NCBI GenBank assembly: GCA_017857395.1
Contig: JAFMDF010000003.1
Location: 1 to 64,000 of the forward strand
Direction: 5' to 3'
Source of the DNA: Bacteroidota bacterium
GTDB taxonomy: Bacteria; Bacteroidota; Bacteroidia; Chitinophagales; Saprospiraceae
DNA: 64,000 bases
The position numbers and the translations under genes are program-made. Positions within the stretch are counted from its first letter, which is position 1, and each line of letters starts with the position of its first letter. Of this stretch, positions 1,412-10,402 are shown one piece after another. Below the pieces are notes generated by a model. It was not told the DNA's origin. It made no database searches and was given only the letters and a program-made list of their open reading frames with translations.

Positions 1412-2662
1412 CTAAGATTTTTTATTAAGCAAATAATAACAAGCACCTGCTATCAAAAAAGAATCTAGAAAATGCGCATGGGTGAGTTGAAAGACCTCAA
1501 AATAAGTGCATAAGGCGATAGTGGAACTAATACCCCAACTGATTAACCCTTTGATTCCCCAAGGTTGAATCTCGGCCAAATCATATTGCTGTTTTTTTAA
1601 CCAAAAGAAATCCAGCAGATAGATAGCGGAAATAGAGGGGGTAAAAACACCTAGAATATCTAAAAAATCAAACAGGTAATCAGAAAATTGAAAAAGCGCC
1701 AACAAAGTGCCAAGCACACTAGTCACTATACACATAGTGCTAAATTTCCATGTCGTTTCCACCGTAGAAAAAGTCAAGACTGTAGAATATAAATTGGAGG
1801 CGTTGGTGACCCAAGTAGAAACAAATAATAAGACAAAAGCTGGCAATATTAAACCTAGTGAATTCATTATTTTTATAATGTCCACTTCTCCCGTTTTTAT
1901 AGCTGTAATGGCACTAATGATTAGAAAGAGTGGCGTACCAATGATTATTCCTAATACTGCAATTAAGCTTTGTTTATCATTATAAATAAATCTTGAAAAA
2001 TCTGCCATTAAAATAGGGACAAGGATGGAAGAACCTATTAAAACTGAAGTCGCATCAAATAAAGACATGCCGTTATTTGGGTCTGGCGCATAGTCCCAAA
2101 GATTGGTCACTACTGTGCTTTGACCTAATGCTTTATACGTGGCATAACCTAAAAATACGGTGAGCAATGGTACTGCAATATTTGCTAACTTTTCAAGACT
2201 TCGAATGCCATAAATAGTCGTTACGGTAATAAAGATACTAGTAAAAACGACGATACTCCAGAGCGGAAAAGCGGTATCAAATACAAGTAGCCCGGTTGCT
2301 TGAATGGCTTGTGCCAATAATTCTAAGGCAACAGAAAACCAGCCTAATAAAATTAATCCTATGATGAAATTGATGATTTTAGCACCCTGTTCTCCAAATG
2401 GAAACCGTAAAATCATGTAAGTGGATAATCTCGACCGATTGCCAACTATAGTGGTGGCAATACATAAGACAGTTAATATCATCGTTGAGATGCTATAAGC
2501 AATAAGTGCCTCTTTTAGTCCAACCGACAAGGCAATTTCTGCCCCTAAATACATAATGGGTAAACTAAAGCCCATCCCTGCAAGCACTAAAGCAATCATC
2601 CAGCCAGAAGTGAAGTCTTTTGCTTGTACTTTTGAAGTGGTGTATTGGTTATTTTCTGACAT
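1412..2662 (-). CDS. NCS1-family nucleobase:cation symporter, copy 1
   Basis: This 416-residue protein is almost entirely hydrophobic, with about 12 predicted membrane spans. It shows the purine-cytosine permease (CodB-like) pattern, for example 'RLSTYMILRFPFG' near residue 80 and 'STWVTNASNLYS' near residue 285. NCS1 carriers import nucleobases, hydantoins, allantoin or related vitamins together with H+ or Na+; the substrate is not predictable here. It is the last gene of a minus-strand series and starts 15 bases after pepD ends. It is clearly paralogous to the NCS1 protein at 4182-5441, sharing the 'TRLSTYMIL.FPFG' and 'FSTW.TN..NLYS' segments. Two NCS1 carriers around one dipeptidase is unusual. 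Confidence 0.88.
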   Translation of the reverse strand: MSENNQYTTSKVQAKDFTSGWMIALVLAGMGFSLPIMYLGAEIALSVGLKEALIAYSISTMILTVLCIATTIVGNRSRLSTYMILRFPFGEQGAKIINFIIGLILLGWFSVALELLAQAIQATGLLVFDTAFPLWSIVVFTSIFITVTTIYGIRSLEKLANIAVPLLTVFLGYATYKALGQSTVVTNLWDYAPDPNNGMSLFDATSVLIGSSILVPILMADFSRFIYNDKQSLIAVLGIIIGTPLFLIISAITAIKTGEVDIIKIMNSLGLILPAFVLLFVSTWVTNASNLYSTVLTFSTVETTWKFSTMCIVTSVLGTLLALFQFSDYLFDFLDILGVFTPSISAIYLLDFFWLKKQQYDLAEIQPWGIKGLISWGISSTIALCTYFEVFQLTHAHFLDSFLIAGACYYLLNKKS

Positions 2663-2677
2663 GATTCGAGTTGCGAG

Positions 2678-4129
2678 TTATAGTACTGCCAAAACAGTTG
2701 TTAAATACGTCCAAAACTTTTGAGTTGAACTAATTTGTAAGGCTTCATCAGGTGAATGTGCGCCTGTAATATTTGGCCCAAAAGAAATGATTTCTAAATG
2801 GGGATAAGTTTCGGCTAAAATGCCACATTCTAAGCCTGCATGAATGGCAAAAATATCAGGTGCTTGACCGTATAATCGTTCATACACCTTTTTCATCGTG
2901 GCAAGGGTTTGGGTATTCGGTTCGGGTTTCCAACCAGGGTATGGATCCATTTCTGTTATTGCTGCATTTATAGCTAAAAAACTACTGCGAATCCCATTCA
3001 CTAAATCAGCTCGTTCGCTTTCAATAAAACTACGGGTGTGACAACTTATTTTATAATGTCCATTTCCCAATTGAATTTTGGCTAAATTATTAGAACTCTG
3101 CACCAAATTATTCAAAGCAGGCGTCATTCTATAAATACCATTTGGGCAAGTATAAATACTGGCGATTAATGATTTTTGGAGGGCATCAGGTAAAACAAAA
3201 GACTCCTTTTTTTCAGGGGTTAACTCAATGGCAAGTTTAGGGTCGTTCTCTTTATTTTCTTTTTGTAGTAAAACCGCCCAAGACAAGACCGCTTCTTTTA
3301 ACAAAGGAATAGCTGCTTTTTCAATACCAATAATAGCAGTACATTCCCTTGGTATGGCATTCGTTAGACTTCCGCCATTTATGGCACCGATTCGAACGCT
3401 AAAGTTTTTATCTAATTCAAATAATAATCTATTGAGTAACTTGATAGCGTTACCTTTTCCTTTGTGAATATCCACGCCTGAGTGACCGCCTGATAAGCCT
3501 TTGACACTTAATTTAAAAAAAGAAACGTCGGGAGACAGCATACTTTCATAATAACTTCCTTCAATTTCCACATCTACACCACCCGCCGAACCAATCGTCA
3601 AAGCATCATCTTCTTCCGAATCTAGGTTTAATAAAATAGCTCCTGTTAAAAACCCTTTTTTTAAACCCATTGCCCCTGTCATTCCGACCTCTTCGTCTAT
3701 GGTAAATATTGCCTCGATGGCTGGGTGTACTAAATCATTGGCTGCTAAAACTGACATAATTGCCGCAACTCCGATGCCATTATCTGCTCCAAGCGTTGTG
3801 CCTTTTGCCCGCACCCAATCCCCATCAACATACATATTGATACCCTGAGTGGTAAAGTCAAAATACGTATTGGCATTTTTTTGATGGACCATATCCAAGT
3901 GCCCTTGTAGGATAATGGTTGGTTTGGATTCCATGCCTTTAGTCGCTGGTTTTTTTATGAGGACATTGCCAATTTCATCGCCTATCGTTTCCAAACCTAA
4001 GTTTTCTCCAAATGTCTTCATAAATTGGATGACTTGTGCTTCTTTTTTGGAAGCCCTTGGAATGGCATTTAATTGACTGAAATGTTTCCAGATAGCAGTT
4101 GGTTGGAGGTGATTTAATGTATTTGACAT
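2678..4129 (-). CDS. pepD: Aminoacyl-histidine dipeptidase (M20 family, PepD-like)
   Basis: The 483-residue length and order fit PepD/carnosinase-type M20 peptidases. The metal-binding 'GHLDMVHQ' (H77, D79), 'GADNGIG' near residue 117 and 'DEEVGMTGA' near residue 147 supply the usual two-zinc site. The dimerisation/lid insertion follows, with 'GLSGGHSG' near residue 215. The enzyme is expected in the cytoplasm, splitting dipeptides such as Xaa-His. There is no signal peptide. It sits between the two NCS1 permease genes on the same strand, 52 and 15 bases from its neighbours, so co-transcription is likely. This suggests it acts on an imported dipeptide or amide. Family assignment is firm; the true substrate in this locus is not. 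Confidence 0.92.
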   Translation of the reverse strand: MSNTLNHLQPTAIWKHFSQLNAIPRASKKEAQVIQFMKTFGENLGLETIGDEIGNVLIKKPATKGMESKPTIILQGHLDMVHQKNANTYFDFTTQGINMYVDGDWVRAKGTTLGADNGIGVAAIMSVLAANDLVHPAIEAIFTIDEEVGMTGAMGLKKGFLTGAILLNLDSEEDDALTIGSAGGVDVEIEGSYYESMLSPDVSFFKLSVKGLSGGHSGVDIHKGKGNAIKLLNRLLFELDKNFSVRIGAINGGSLTNAIPRECTAIIGIEKAAIPLLKEAVLSWAVLLQKENKENDPKLAIELTPEKKESFVLPDALQKSLIASIYTCPNGIYRMTPALNNLVQSSNNLAKIQLGNGHYKISCHTRSFIESERADLVNGIRSSFLAINAAITEMDPYPGWKPEPNTQTLATMKKVYERLYGQAPDIFAIHAGLECGILAETYPHLEIISFGPNITGAHSPDEALQISSTQKFWTYLTTVLAVL

Positions 4130-4181: not shown

Positions 4182-5441
4182 CTAATCCTTCTTCACCTTC
4201 AAAAGTACCCCATAAAAAATCAAACCTGCCAAAAAAGCATCAATAAAAGGAATAGTCGTCAATTGAAATAATCCATTATGCGTAGCAATCGCCACTAAAG
4301 AACTAGCGCCCCAAGCCAATAAGGCTTGCCAAATATAAGCTGGTAATGCCTCGATTTCATTCACGTCGTATACACCTTTACTTACAAAAAAATAATGGAG
4401 GATAAATATGGATGCTAGAGAAGGAACGACGAGACTCACAAAAGTCAACATATCAATAAAATAAGTCGAGAACCCCATTATGGCGAGTAGGGTAGCGATA
4501 ATACTCGATACCACACCTATTGCCCAAAATTTCCATTTTTTATTAAGGGTGGCAAAAACGAGGATGGAGGAATAGAGATTGACCACGTTGGTCGTCCAAG
4601 TAGAGAAAATAAGTATAAAAAAAGCAGGTATCGTTAAACCTAACCCAATCATTATTTTCATAATGTCTTCTTCTCCTGTGAGAATAGACGGCGCTGCACC
4701 TGCAATTAAAACGAAGGGTTGACCTATAGCTAATCCTAAAGCACCCAACAAAGCATCTTTATCTTTTGCTGCAAAACGGGAAAAATCAGGCATAAAGACA
4801 GGCATTAAGATGGAAGTGCCTGTAATGATAGAAATAGCTTCTAAAGTAGTCATTTTACCATTGCCTGCAAAAGTCCAAATTTTCTCCCAACTCTCTGGTT
4901 CTTGTAACGAAACGTACAAAATATACCCAACAAAAAGGATTAAAAAGGGAACGGCGACATTGGAAAATTTCTCAATGACCCTAAAACCAAAAATGGTTGT
5001 TAAGGTCATCAATAGGCTACTCACCAAAATTAATATGGTTAAAGGAATATCAATATTAAGTACTTCAATGAAAGCGTCTGAAAGGGCTTGCCCGAATAAT
5101 TCAATGGTAATGGCATACCAACCCAATGCAGGTATGGCGACTAGCAGGTTAATAAATTTAACGCCCCTTTTTCCAAAGGGAAAATGCAAAATCATGTAGG
5201 TGGACAATCTTGTGCGCCGACCAATAATAGCCGTAATGGTACAAAGGACACCCAATACAATAGAAACAAAACCAAAGACCAATAAGGCAGATTGAAAACC
5301 GATAGATTGGGTCACATTCGCCCCTACATAGAAGACAGGAAGGGTAATACCAATCCCTACAATAACCCCCATGATGCTTAAGCCACCAACGGTGGCATTT
5401 TCTGGTACACGGGTAGTTGTAAAGTCGCCTTGTTCTGCCAT
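4182..5441 (-). CDS. NCS1-family nucleobase:cation symporter, copy 2
   Basis: A 419-residue polytopic membrane protein of the CodB/purine-cytosine permease type. It has the conserved 'TRLSTYMILHFPFGKRG' segment near residue 75 and 'IFSTWTTNVVNLYSS' near residue 280. It shares these and general layout with the NCS1 protein at 1412-2662, but they have diverged enough that a recent duplication is unlikely. It lies between the M29-like enzyme (60 bases upstream, with a dyad in the gap) and pepD (52 bases downstream), all on the minus strand. The role is substrate import across the inner membrane, probably of the product that crosses the outer membrane through the TonB receptor. Substrate unknown. 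Confidence 0.88.
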   Translation of the reverse strand: MAEQGDFTTTRVPENATVGGLSIMGVIVGIGITLPVFYVGANVTQSIGFQSALLVFGFVSIVLGVLCTITAIIGRRTRLSTYMILHFPFGKRGVKFINLLVAIPALGWYAITIELFGQALSDAFIEVLNIDIPLTILILVSSLLMTLTTIFGFRVIEKFSNVAVPFLILFVGYILYVSLQEPESWEKIWTFAGNGKMTTLEAISIITGTSILMPVFMPDFSRFAAKDKDALLGALGLAIGQPFVLIAGAAPSILTGEEDIMKIMIGLGLTIPAFFILIFSTWTTNVVNLYSSILVFATLNKKWKFWAIGVVSSIIATLLAIMGFSTYFIDMLTFVSLVVPSLASIFILHYFFVSKGVYDVNEIEALPAYIWQALLAWGASSLVAIATHNGLFQLTTIPFIDAFLAGLIFYGVLLKVKKD

Positions 5442-5501: not shown

Positions 5502-6560
5502 CTACGAAACCAATTCCTGTTTCGCTAAAATTGCATCTGCCATTTCTTTTAAATCAGGATGACAAACGACCCCCTCTTTGACAATTAATTGGTCATCAAA
5601 GTAGATATTAGTCTTAGCAACAATGCCATCAAAATGAGATTTAGCAGGCTGACCAAGTGGCGGCATATCAATCGGACTCGTATGACCAAAACCAAAATCT
5701 ACCCCGCCCCAAATGCGTTCATCTTCTACGATTTCGCCACAGAGTTCATGGATGTTTGGATGTAAACCAATCATGTGGTGGGAAATTTTATACATATTGG
5801 GGTCATTAAAAGCGGCTAGATAATTGGCAAATTTTTCCGCCACTTTTCCGCCTTTTACGGCAGCTATTTTACCCGCTTTCATTTCGAATGTGACTCCTCC
5901 TTTATGCAAATCAGCGTTCATTAATTCATCAAAAACAATAGTGCCATTCATACTGCCTATCTTGGGCACAATATTGACATACCCCGGTGCGGTACAAAAT
6001 TTTGGGATAGAAAAATCTCCATTGTCTAAATCTAAGGCAAAATTAGCATCTGTTTCATAGCTGACATCGGTTCCATTTTTACTGGTAACCCGCACTTTCT
6101 GAGTGGTCGCTGCCATATCCTTTACTCGATGTAATAGCTTGCCTAGACTTGCTATATCAAAATCAGTAAATACTCTAGCCAAAGATTCAATAGAAGAGTC
6201 TCCTATGATGACATAGCGCAATTTTTTGTTCTTCGCCATTGCTGTCTCCCAGATTTCAGAATATAAAAGAATCGGCACATTGAGTTCTATCCAAACATCT
6301 ACTTCGCATAAGGCAGCGGTTAACGCTTTTGCGGGCCAATCGGGCATGCCTGCTTGTCCGTCTTCTCTTGCTCTTGGCGTATAGATAATCATCGGAATGC
6401 CACCTGCTGCATAAGCTGCTGCTGCCAAACCATCTACTATTTGTCTATCTGTCGCCGAATCAGCAGTAATCGCCACGGTTTCTCCTTTTTTTACTTGAAA
6501 CATCTCCTCTAGGAGTACCTTGGAAAATTTGGCTATTTCTAAATTATATTTGTTGGTCAT
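5502..6560 (-). CDS. M29 aminopeptidase / NicX-like metalloenzyme
   Basis: 352 residues. The N-terminal part ('LEEMFQVKKGETVAITAD') and the C-terminal metal-site region ('HELCGEIVEDERIWGGVDFGFGHTSP', quoted only in part elsewhere, and 'KSHFDGIV') match the M29 thermophilic aminopeptidase (AmpS/AmpT) fold. That fold is shared with 2,5-dihydroxypyridine 5,6-dioxygenase (NicX). The conserved Glu, the FGH histidine and the SHFD His/Asp pair are candidate metal ligands. Aminopeptidase and ring-cleaving dioxygenase share these ligands, so the chemistry cannot be decided from sequence alone. It is the second gene after the TonB receptor, with pepD and two NCS1 carriers downstream. Either a peptidase or an N-heterocycle-cleaving enzyme would make sense there. 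Confidence 0.8.
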   Translation of the reverse strand: MTNKYNLEIAKFSKVLLEEMFQVKKGETVAITADSATDRQIVDGLAAAAYAAGGIPMIIYTPRAREDGQAGMPDWPAKALTAALCEVDVWIELNVPILLYSEIWETAMAKNKKLRYVIIGDSSIESLARVFTDFDIASLGKLLHRVKDMAATTQKVRVTSKNGTDVSYETDANFALDLDNGDFSIPKFCTAPGYVNIVPKIGSMNGTIVFDELMNADLHKGGVTFEMKAGKIAAVKGGKVAEKFANYLAAFNDPNMYKISHHMIGLHPNIHELCGEIVEDERIWGGVDFGFGHTSPIDMPPLGQPAKSHFDGIVAKTNIYFDDQLIVKEGVVCHPDLKEMADAILAKQELVS

Positions 6561-6643: not shown

Positions 6644-9016
6644 CTAAAAATCAATTCCAAAAGTCGCTCCAATGGTAGCAGGACGACCTCTCCATCCGAT
6701 ACCTCCAAAAGGGTCTGCCTCTAAATAATATTGTTGGTCTGTGATATTTTTTCCCCAAAGCGCAAAACTAAGCTTATTCACATTTAAGGACACTCTAGCA
6801 TTGAGCAATTGATAGGCATCAGCAATAGTACCTTCCTCATTAGAATCATACCAATAGATTTTTCCCGTACCGTTCAGATTGATATTGATATCTAAACTTG
6901 CATTTTCTCCTACCTCAAAACTAGAAGCCAATCCGATATTGAAATTATTTTGAGGGACAAAAGAAGTAAAATTACCATTGAATTCATTTAAGTCTCTTGA
7001 AGTACCATCCGCTCCACCAGTAGTACCACCTTGATCAATTTTGGAATTGACCAAACCATAACTTAGGTTAACATCCAGGTATTTTGATAACCTGATTTTT
7101 GAATCTAATTCAAATCCAGCAATCGTACTCTTTTCATAGTTGTAATTACCAGGCACAAAATTATCTAAATCATATATAAATTGCTGCCTGTCCGTAAAGT
7201 CAGAAAAGAAGACAGAGGCATTCAGTAGAAACCGATTGTCCCAAAAGGAAGTTTTAGCACCGATTTCAAAATTATCAGATAATTCTTTGCGGAAATCAGC
7301 AGCAAAAAGTTCTGTGAACTGCGCATTGAAACCTCCTGATCGGTAGCCTCTACCGTAATTAAAATACATCAAGGCATTTTCAGACGCTTGGTAACTCAAC
7401 GAAGCTTTAGGTTGCAATACATTCGCATCTCTTTTGTTCACGATAGCCTCGGGTTCACCAAAAAGTAAGGGCAATCTATCTTCTTGCTCGTAATTGTCGA
7501 TATCATATCTAAGTCCAAATGATGCCGTCAACTTATCGTTTAGGCTATAATCTAAGAATCCGAAAAAAGCGATGGTATTGAAATCAACCGTATAATCAGT
7601 TACTGCCCAATCATCCGAAAAAGTTAAGTCAGACTGATAGAAGTTACGTTCTACATTTTGAAAAAAACCACCTACACTCCAATCTAATTTGGAAGCATTA
7701 TTATTGTTGGATAATCTAAATTCTTGGTTGATTGATTTTGTATCATTAAATTCTCCTTGATCTAAGCCAAAAAAGTCAACAAAACCATCAAATGGCTCTT
7801 CCGTAAAGTCAAGATCACCAGTTGTATTCCTGTCTACTTTACTGTAGGAAGTAATGCTCTGTAATTTAGCCTTCCCTAAATTAAATTGAAGGTTGACACT
7901 CCCAAATAAATTTTTCATATCAGAATTTCCGAAAACATCCTGATGGATGACACTATTCTCATTCGTCGGATTTGGATTAATCCCAGCAAAAAAGGGTGCT
8001 CCACCCGAGCCTATACTTGCAGGGTCTATAGAATAATAGGTCGCTCCTGCATCCGTATTCATATACTGCAAGGTGGCAGTCGCTTTTACTTTGCTAGAAG
8101 GCGTAAGGATTACTTGACCCCTTAGATTCAAATCTTTGCTAAAATCTACTTTTTTATCAAGAAAAGTATTCGTTAATAGCCCATTAAAATTCTGGTACTT
8201 CCCTGAAATTCTATAGTAAGCCTTATCTTCTGTTATCGCACCAGAGGAAACCAACTGACCAGAATAATAGCCTCCATTACCCGCACCAATCTGAATATTA
8301 TTTTTGCTTTCATTGGTCGGTTCTTTAGAATAGATGTTGATGGCTCCAGCAATAGCGTTTTTACCATATAAGGCGCCTTGAGGACCTTTTACCACCTCAA
8401 TTAAGGCTAGGTCAAAAACTTCTTGGTTCAATAATGCTGGATCTGGAATAGTCACTCCATCCACGACAAAAGCTACAGGTGCATCCGAGTTCCTTATTTG
8501 TGGAATGCCTCGGATTACCAAAAAATTAACGCCTACAGCTTGAGATTCGCTCAACTTCATATTAGGCACCAATTCAGCGAAGTCCGCTACATTAGAAATA
8601 CCTGCTTTTTCTATCCCCTCACTATTAAGCGCAGTTACGGACTCTGGTATTTTTTGAATAGAGGCGACTCGTTTTCTAGCTCTACCAACTACGCCAGAAA
8701 ATCCTTTAACAACCACCTCTTCTAATGTTTCGGCGGATTCCGTTAGCGTAATATTCAATCGGCTTTTTCCATCCAATGGCATTTCTATATCCCCATATCC
8801 TGTATAAGTAATCATTAAGGTAGCATCGGCGGATGCTACGGTTAATTCATAATTTCCATTATAATCGGAAACCGTCCCATTATTGGTGCCTTTTTCAACG
8901 ATTGTTGCGCCAATAAGCGTTTCGCCCGCCGCATCAACGATAGTTCCTGATACCGTTACTTGGGCATAGGAAAAAGTCGAAACAAGTAGAAATAATAAAT
9001 AAGTATATTTTTTCAT
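6644..9016 (-). CDS. TonB-dependent outer-membrane receptor
   Basis: 790 residues. A signal peptide ends at 'FSYAQ' (about residue 18). Next come a carboxypeptidase-regulatory-like beta domain (about 20-105, 'GTIVDAAGETLIGATIVEKG'), a plug domain (about 120-230, with 'FVVDGVTIPDPALL' and 'VKGPQGALYGKNAIAGAI') and a 22-strand-type barrel to the C-terminal Phe. The overall form is the non-SusC type, near the siderophore/vitamin receptor length of 700-800 residues rather than the 1000 of SusC. No SusD-like lipoprotein gene is adjacent. It heads the minus-strand locus and presumably brings the substrate of the downstream permeases and hydrolases across the outer membrane. No clear TAnnTTTG promoter was found in the 132-base gap upstream. 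Confidence 0.92.
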   Translation of the reverse strand: MKKYTYLLFLLVSTFSYAQVTVSGTIVDAAGETLIGATIVEKGTNNGTVSDYNGNYELTVASADATLMITYTGYGDIEMPLDGKSRLNITLTESAETLEEVVVKGFSGVVGRARKRVASIQKIPESVTALNSEGIEKAGISNVADFAELVPNMKLSESQAVGVNFLVIRGIPQIRNSDAPVAFVVDGVTIPDPALLNQEVFDLALIEVVKGPQGALYGKNAIAGAINIYSKEPTNESKNNIQIGAGNGGYYSGQLVSSGAITEDKAYYRISGKYQNFNGLLTNTFLDKKVDFSKDLNLRGQVILTPSSKVKATATLQYMNTDAGATYYSIDPASIGSGGAPFFAGINPNPTNENSVIHQDVFGNSDMKNLFGSVNLQFNLGKAKLQSITSYSKVDRNTTGDLDFTEEPFDGFVDFFGLDQGEFNDTKSINQEFRLSNNNNASKLDWSVGGFFQNVERNFYQSDLTFSDDWAVTDYTVDFNTIAFFGFLDYSLNDKLTASFGLRYDIDNYEQEDRLPLLFGEPEAIVNKRDANVLQPKASLSYQASENALMYFNYGRGYRSGGFNAQFTELFAADFRKELSDNFEIGAKTSFWDNRFLLNASVFFSDFTDRQQFIYDLDNFVPGNYNYEKSTIAGFELDSKIRLSKYLDVNLSYGLVNSKIDQGGTTGGADGTSRDLNEFNGNFTSFVPQNNFNIGLASSFEVGENASLDININLNGTGKIYWYDSNEEGTIADAYQLLNARVSLNVNKLSFALWGKNITDQQYYLEADPFGGIGWRGRPATIGATFGIDF

Positions 9017-9148
9017 CCTATTAAGTTTTAAAATAAATGAAAGATTAAGCTAAAAAGAATGTGAACTTAGGGAAGAGTTAATTCTATTCGTTTATTTTTA
9101 CTTATTTTTATTTTATTTAGTAATTCTATTTAAAAAATCAGAATAAAT

Positions 9149-10402
9149 ATGAAAAATCGGAAAAATGTAGAAAATAATACCCTTTTGGTGACGGGATATT
9201 GTTTTAAAATTTTATTAGCAATGATTTTAAAACAATTTAAAGAAGAACATAAAGAAAATGCAGCAGTTATTGGTCGGGTCACTCAACTGTATGGATTTGG
9301 GAATTATAATGCAAACCTGCCTAGTTTAGGGCAAACATTAGAAAAATTGACAGGCGAATTTATCAATGGCAAATACCTATATGATAAACAAAGAGAGCTA
9401 CAAATGGGAAAACCTGTATTAAAGTTGAATGGTTATTATAAAACCGTCCTTTTTCAATATATTGGCTATGAAGGGATTGTCGATTTTACTAAAAAAGTGA
9501 TTAAAGAGGAACAAGAAAAAGCTAGACAACTTGCCTTAATTCAAAATGATTCGCTCGAACAGAATTTCTTTTATGTGTGCTATTATTATGGAGAATTCAA
9601 AGAAGTGGTTAAATGTCAAGTGGTCGTATTGAATAATTGGAAAAACCTGCAATACACTTATTTATATCCACTGAAAAATGGGACTTTTAAAAAATTTCTA
9701 GCTTCTGGAACGGCTAAAAGGAGAGCGGATATCTTGCATGTGCGAACAAAGACATTGATGGATGGAAGGATGATAGATGGAGGAGAAGATATTTTATACG
9801 TTGGTCATACCGAACCAGGTACGAATGCTTTTATGTTAGGCGTATTTTCAGCATTTGACATTAATAATAGAGTAGTTGCAGGCAAAATAATTTTTGAAAA
9901 ATGTGATTCCAAAGCGGAAATGATTGCTAAATCTACTACCTTAAAAATTCCTGCTTATATCGCACAAGAATTAAGAAATGTAAGAATTGAAAACGATGGG
10001 ATTATACCTAATAGCACCTTTGATATTTCGTCCAAAAGCCCTTATAGCATTACTTATGATAAAATTCCTGGCAATTATACCTTCACCCTTTTTCAAGAAG
10101 AAAAACTACTAGGCGATTTCCAATTTTCGATTCATTCAGACACCTACAAATTAGCTTCTTTGACGGAAGGGGTATTAATCGTAAAAGATAATTTTGAATT
10201 GATTCAGAATGGTTCCGTTATTCATTTTAGTCTTCAACTGACGGGCATTGCTTTCTTTACTAGATTAGAAGTCTTTATTAAAACTTATTATTTAAACAAA
10301 GGCTCAGCGGATATTCGAGGGGTATTTAGTGGCTTGGATATTGAAAATCGCTTGATTAATGGAGCTGTTCAGGTAATTTATAAGCCTTGTCTTGCTAAAT
10401 AA
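9149..10402 (+). CDS. Unrecognised protein with a repeated domain
   Basis: I do not recognise this 417-residue protein. It has no signal peptide or membrane span, so it is probably cytoplasmic. The first 110 residues are rich in Lys/Glu and look helical. The rest contains two related beta-rich units. Both end in the same signature: 'LGVFSAFDINNRVVAGKIIF' followed by 'EKC' at about residues 230-252, and 'RGVFSGLDIENRLINGAVQV' followed by 'IYKPC' at about 389-413. This gives G-V-F-S-x-x-D-I-x-N-R-x(3)-G and a closing cysteine. It is divergent from the TonB receptor operon with a 132-base gap. A regulatory or sensing role for that operon is possible, but no DNA-binding motif is visible. Confidence 0.8.
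   Translation: MKNRKNVENNTLLVTGYCFKILLAMILKQFKEEHKENAAVIGRVTQLYGFGNYNANLPSLGQTLEKLTGEFINGKYLYDKQRELQMGKPVLKLNGYYKTVLFQYIGYEGIVDFTKKVIKEEQEKARQLALIQNDSLEQNFFYVCYYYGEFKEVVKCQVVVLNNWKNLQYTYLYPLKNGTFKKFLASGTAKRRADILHVRTKTLMDGRMIDGGEDILYVGHTEPGTNAFMLGVFSAFDINNRVVAGKIIFEKCDSKAEMIAKSTTLKIPAYIAQELRNVRIENDGIIPNSTFDISSKSPYSITYDKIPGNYTFTLFQEEKLLGDFQFSIHSDTYKLASLTEGVLIVKDNFELIQNGSVIHFSLQLTGIAFFTRLEVFIKTYYLNKGSADIRGVFSGLDIENRLINGAVQVIYKPCLAK

Follow-up and report, generated by a model that had tools for sequence, protein, structure and literature searches.

A 417-residue protein from a Saprospiraceae bacterium, encoded in the window (the whole stretch of 64,000 nucleotides analysed here) and hereafter called REG, carries an internal repeat whose two units are predicted to be barrels, belongs to no curated family, lies divergent from an uptake operon and shares its N-terminal domain with proteins spread through Bacteroidota. 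We consider it moderately probable that REG acts in the cytoplasm as a one-component regulator, with two lipocalin-like sensors in tandem, and controls the divergent operon. It would do so, probably, by sensing a small molecule; ligand binding, DNA binding and regulation are the parts of this picture that we infer. The protein is laid out as follows.

9149 to 10402, forward strand: REG, proposed regulator of 417 residues, an open reading frame with an ATG start; helical N-terminal domain and two predicted lipocalin-like barrels.
9173 to 9553, forward strand: all-helical N-terminal domain, residues 9-135, proposed output domain (AlphaFold2 model of the domain alone).
9365 to 9445, forward strand: most conserved, basic helix-turn stretch within the N-terminal domain, residues 73-99, NGKYLYDKQRELQMGKPVLKLNGYYKT.
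9566 to 9904, forward strand: predicted barrel 1, residues 140-252, eight strands from 140-147 to 242-252 (AlphaFold2; Foldseek to lipocalin-like structures).
9839 to 9871, forward strand: signature copy 1, GVFSAFDINNR, in the predicted beta7-turn-beta8 hairpin of barrel 1.
9905 to 10045, forward strand: inter-barrel linker, residues 253-299, in which two helices are predicted and one stretch is modelled with low confidence (AlphaFold2).
10070 to 10387, forward strand: predicted barrel 2, residues 308-413, eight strands (AlphaFold2; Foldseek).
10319 to 10351, forward strand: signature copy 2, GVFSGLDIENR, in the predicted beta7-turn-beta8 hairpin of barrel 2.

A preliminary description of this DNA had pointed to two related units about 160 residues apart that end in the same signature, and this is borne out. 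The two copies of the signature (residues 231-241 and 391-401) are spaced by exactly 160 residues, and local alignment of the two halves of the protein against each other gives a score of 60 that is reached in 0 of 2000 shuffles, the best of which attains 54. When profiles of the two units, built from 15 orthologues, are aligned with each other, P is 1.3e-5, the similarity being confined to 22 columns; together with the half-to-half score, this argues that the repeat is real. Judging from the sequences, it is the final hairpin alone that can still be recognised as a repeat. The exact D-I-x-N-R signature is no more than the form that a more general hairpin motif, G-x-[YF]-...-P-x-x-G-[KR]-x-x-[LF], takes in this subfamily; many relatives in Bacteroidota carry the general motif roughly once for each barrel. 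The cysteine said to close each unit turned out to be incidental and was rejected as a conserved feature, since Cys414 is found in the window protein only (15 orthologues compared) and Cys252, although present in 14 of the 15, is absent from the paralogues.

In searches of Pfam, NCBIfam, PADLOC and PDB sequences with REG, its barrels or its N-terminal domain, nothing reached the cut-off, and by this measure the family is in none of the databases searched. The lipocalin models in Pfam gave no match either, which leaves REG without sequence membership in the lipocalin family. Matches to the ParB CE domain, DUF5659, bPH_4, HTH_19 and similar Pfam entries were discarded, being below cut-off and not common to the members; ParB CE (PF24392), for instance, reached 15 bits where its cut-off demands 23, and in one of nine members only. 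An anti-phage role was likewise discarded, PADLOC giving no known defence family and phage and plasmid records yielding no relatives of REG.

The description of the repeated unit as an unrecognised domain thus stands for curated sequence families. It does not stand for the fold, which can be recognised in predicted structures as an eight-stranded lipocalin-like barrel. The full-length AlphaFold2 model (mean pLDDT 77, pTM 0.39) is helical as far as residue 134; eight strands follow between residues 140 and 252, then further helices and eight more strands between residues 308 and 413, with the signature of each barrel forming the turn that joins its last two strands. Confidence in the barrels is moderate (pLDDT mostly 70-90, with stretches of barrel 1 near 50). 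In Foldseek searches of the PDB, the top matches were the DUF4822 protein EF0375 (E 1.5e-5) and the lipocalin-like EF0376 (E 3.3e-5), both in long alignments spanning the two barrels, followed further down by many single lipocalins with probabilities of about 0.95-1.0. The best structural matches are therefore lipocalin-fold proteins, although target-normalised TM-scores against the single lipocalins are low (about 0.35-0.42). The match to a described fold is thus a modest one by TM-score, and we regard the C-terminal units, with moderate confidence, as lipocalin-like: the model has the eight-stranded up-and-down arrangement expected of such barrels, their closure being read from the Foldseek matches only.

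The third and fourth Foldseek matches are double-lipocalin enzymes of the kievitone hydratase / 25-phosphosteroid lyase type, which raises the idea that REG is, through its paired barrels, such an enzyme and acts in the same catabolic pathway as the genes beside it, which do look catabolic. We find this most improbable, because these matches have lower probabilities (0.60-0.72) and a poor inter-domain superposition, most of the near-invariant residues in the barrels have structural roles (Gly, Tyr and Asp/Asn of the hairpin) and no catalytic set is evident among them, and there are relatives of REG with a single barrel or none.

On its other side, across a short spacer, REG faces an operon that runs from position 9016 down to 1412.

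9017 to 9148, no strand: spacer of 132 bp that separates the start of REG from the divergent start of the TonB receptor gene; proposed as operator/promoter region, AATTC lying at 9122-9126.
6644 to 9016, reverse strand: TonB-dependent receptor, divergent partner of REG and first gene of the proposed target operon (Pfam Plug and TonB_dep_Rec_b-barrel).
5502 to 6560, reverse strand: M29 / NicX-like protein (phmmer to 7cn3; conserved synteny).
4182 to 5441, reverse strand: NCS1 (cytosine-permease-like) transporter (Pfam Transp_cyt_pur; NCBIfam).
2678 to 4129, reverse strand: Beta-Ala-His dipeptidase, PepD-like (TIGR01893 above cut-off).
1412 to 2662, reverse strand: second NCS1 transporter (NCBIfam), kept in orthologous operons.

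The divergent arrangement noted in the preliminary description is confirmed and extends well beyond this genome. REG is a single-copy gene in its own 10.2-Mb genome and has orthologues with 45-87% identity in Saprospiraceae genomes. All 16 orthologues with upstream DNA are divergent from the same TonB receptor gene, with spacers of 107-273 bp. Wherever the flank is long enough, the M29/NicX-like gene and the gene for an NCS1 permease come next in the operon, PepD and the second NCS1 gene being present in some of these loci. The link between REG and the TonB/NCS1 locus, for which the preliminary description had proposed a test, is strong, and its linkage with the proposed target operon is conserved. 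Seen from the other side, 12 of the 14 genomes with an M29-like gene (among 298 family genomes) also carry REG, and in the remaining two (G207 and G313) the contig ends inside the receptor. Any match to REG, weak distant ones included, was found in 26 of the 398 family genomes sampled; as the search scored only some first-pass candidates per genome, counts of distant relatives are lower bounds on presence.

A group of paralogues with about 27% identity, found in the same genus and, in the case of L039, in another family of the class, lies opposite other genes: proline dehydrogenase in Saprospiraceae and another TonB receptor in the other family. Of the 18 family members compared in this respect (the window protein being one), 16 are divergent from their upstream gene. 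In three loci (L022, L036 and L037) the gene facing the paralogue is proline dehydrogenase-like, and in the last two a gene identified by eye as FKBP-type isomerase-like follows directly.

The constant company of REG and the uptake operon would also suit a cytoplasmic carrier or chaperone, whose barrels would hold an imported molecule and pass it to the NCS1/hydrolase pathway while the N-terminal domain docks proteins, a role in keeping with the lack of a DNA-binding match in that domain. Small molecules are, moreover, the usual cargo of lipocalin-like folds. However, REG is always opposite the operon and never within it (16/16 orthologues with upstream DNA), its paralogues oppose proline dehydrogenase or others, and its membrane-anchored relatives (see below) oppose SIMPL-family secreted proteins. 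Such varied genes fit regulators better than a carrier of one substrate, and we consider a carrier unlikely. For a regulator, divergent orientation is suggestive evidence, not proof.

The N-terminal domain, modelled alone, reaches a pLDDT of 95.4 and a pTM of 0.88, and Foldseek finds no fold relatives for it in the PDB or among viral models; because this is a confident fold with no PDB match, its structure would be informative whatever its partner. Residues 73-99 have a mean conservation of 0.825 across 15 orthologues and a net charge of +4 to +6 in every one of them. Pfam gives no HTH or other DNA-binding match for the domain. The pattern 'REL..GKP' within it looks XRE-like; profile comparison gives this no support, hhalign with nine XRE domains encoded in the REG genome returning probabilities of 0.2-0.3%, and an XRE-type HTH was rejected. 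No recognisable DNA-binding domain was thus found in REG by Pfam, by hhalign against XRE domains or by Foldseek against the PDB.

In distant Bacteroidota relatives, the same N-terminal domain is joined to differing C-terminal parts. It precedes two hairpin motifs and a helical tail in L041, L093 and L094, one barrel in L044, a NUDIX domain in L034 (1279-3228; Pfam E 4.6e-12) and, as read by eye, a membrane helix and periplasmic part in L046 and L096-L104. E-values of the N-terminal profile go down to 1e-30 for L041/L092, which was itself in the profile, and are 1e-14 to 1e-15 for L093/L094 and 1e-2 to 1e-8 for the membrane group. Where scanned, L041/L093/L094, L044 and the L046, L096-L104 group received no Pfam names. 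That one N-terminal domain is joined to a single barrel, to two or more barrels and a helical tail, or to a membrane helix and periplasmic part is the pattern that a shared output domain would show if its sensors had been exchanged. It is possible, and we put it forward tentatively, that these proteins form an undescribed, Bacteroidota-wide regulator family. Each member would combine a new DNA-binding helical fold with one of several interchangeable sensors, be it two lipocalin-like barrels in tandem in the cytoplasm, a single barrel, or a membrane helix together with a periplasmic domain, and would control a divergent uptake or secreted-protein gene.

Among the membrane-anchored relatives, those in L096, L097 and L099 are divergent from a secreted-protein gene, which in L097 and L099 matches SIMPL/DUF541. 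In L100-L104 (e.g. L101:1609-3127) the next gene is lipoprotein-like and begins before the regulator-like gene has ended, an overlap reminiscent of co-component pairs.

The N-terminal fold, lacking a DNA-binding match, could alternatively belong to an anti-sigma-like or adaptor signalling protein that contacts RNA polymerase or a sigma factor instead of DNA; the presumed cytoplasmic location of this domain in the membrane-anchored relatives, whose genes are directly followed by a lipoprotein-like one, would agree with such a role. The conserved basic helix-turn stretch speaks against it, as does the finding that no sigma-factor gene lies beside REG in the window or in the orthologous loci inspected, and an adaptor seems to us very unlikely.

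The case for a one-component regulator draws on divergent placement, on a signal peptide not being apparent in REG (inspected by eye), on an N-terminal domain that is common to proteins with differing, seemingly exchangeable sensors, and on the conserved basic stretch. It is weakened by the missing DNA-binding match, the moderate confidence of the barrels and their low TM-scores, and by the search of the spacers, in which no shared palindromic operator was found. In the model that we propose, REG would be located in the cytoplasm, where its barrels would bind a small molecule, most likely one that the TonB receptor and the NCS1 permeases encoded next to it import, or a product of that molecule. 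Binding would alter the seating of the N-terminal helical domain, as output, on the 132-bp spacer and thereby switch the operon of receptor, M29/NicX-like, NCS1, PepD and NCS1 genes, and probably the REG gene itself. As to the signal, the M29/NicX-like protein resembles 2,5-dihydroxypyridine 5,6-dioxygenase (7cn3; phmmer E 3e-7, its Pfam Peptidase_M29 match being below cut-off) and the permeases resemble cytosine permease, so that a nucleobase- or pyridine-like molecule is a reasonable first guess, no more.

Within the spacer, a palindromic operator common to the orthologous sequences was looked for and rejected, none being found. Each of the 16 orthologous spacers has an AATT[CA] element about 26 bases ahead of the REG start codon, against a mean of 2.4 and a maximum of 7 spacers in shuffles (a statistic that ignores kinship); the element may be a promoter element, not an operator.

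Of the systems already described, the lipocalin/calycin fold, including EF0375 (4nw4) and EF0376 (4kh8), has the eight-stranded meander barrels predicted for REG, which differs by its extra N-terminal helical domain, the lack of an apparent signal peptide and the lack of a Pfam or PDB sequence match. Classical cytoplasmic one-component regulators of the TetR, GntR/HutC and AraC types resemble REG in combining an N-terminal output part with a C-terminal ligand-binding part (both putative in REG) and a divergent target operon, but the N-terminal fold and sensor of REG match none of them in Pfam. The relatives L041/L093/L094, L044, L046 and L096-L104, which share its N-terminal domain, are mostly divergent too. 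The nearest published precedent for a sensor of the proposed type is VtrA/VtrC, in which a lipocalin-like domain senses bile acid and signals to a DNA-binding transcription factor (PMC9214523). As proposed for REG, a lipocalin-like sensor feeds a transcription regulator in both VtrA/VtrC and ToxR/ToxS (PMC9214523). However, their barrel is periplasmic and on a separate membrane-anchored partner, whereas REG has two barrels on one apparently cytoplasmic chain, and their HTH is known, whereas none was found in REG. A literature search for a lipocalin-type cytoplasmic regulator or for the REG-linked operon returned no paper.

For many of the uptake operons in Bacteroidota, no local regulator is known. 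If real, the regulator family outlined here would be one missed by Pfam and NCBIfam, whose members could nevertheless be recognised from the N-terminal domain and the divergent position of the gene. It would yield testable regulator-operon pairs and bring lipocalin-like barrels into the cytoplasmic sensor repertoire.

In a further relative, L030 (1255-2004), the search match crosses one TAG stop, and HTH_19 matches the N-terminal part weakly, at E 0.005 and below cut-off. L040:1495-1743 is open for the last 82 residues only of a protein like the REG orthologues, ends in GVFSGIDNENR and is possibly a broken copy.
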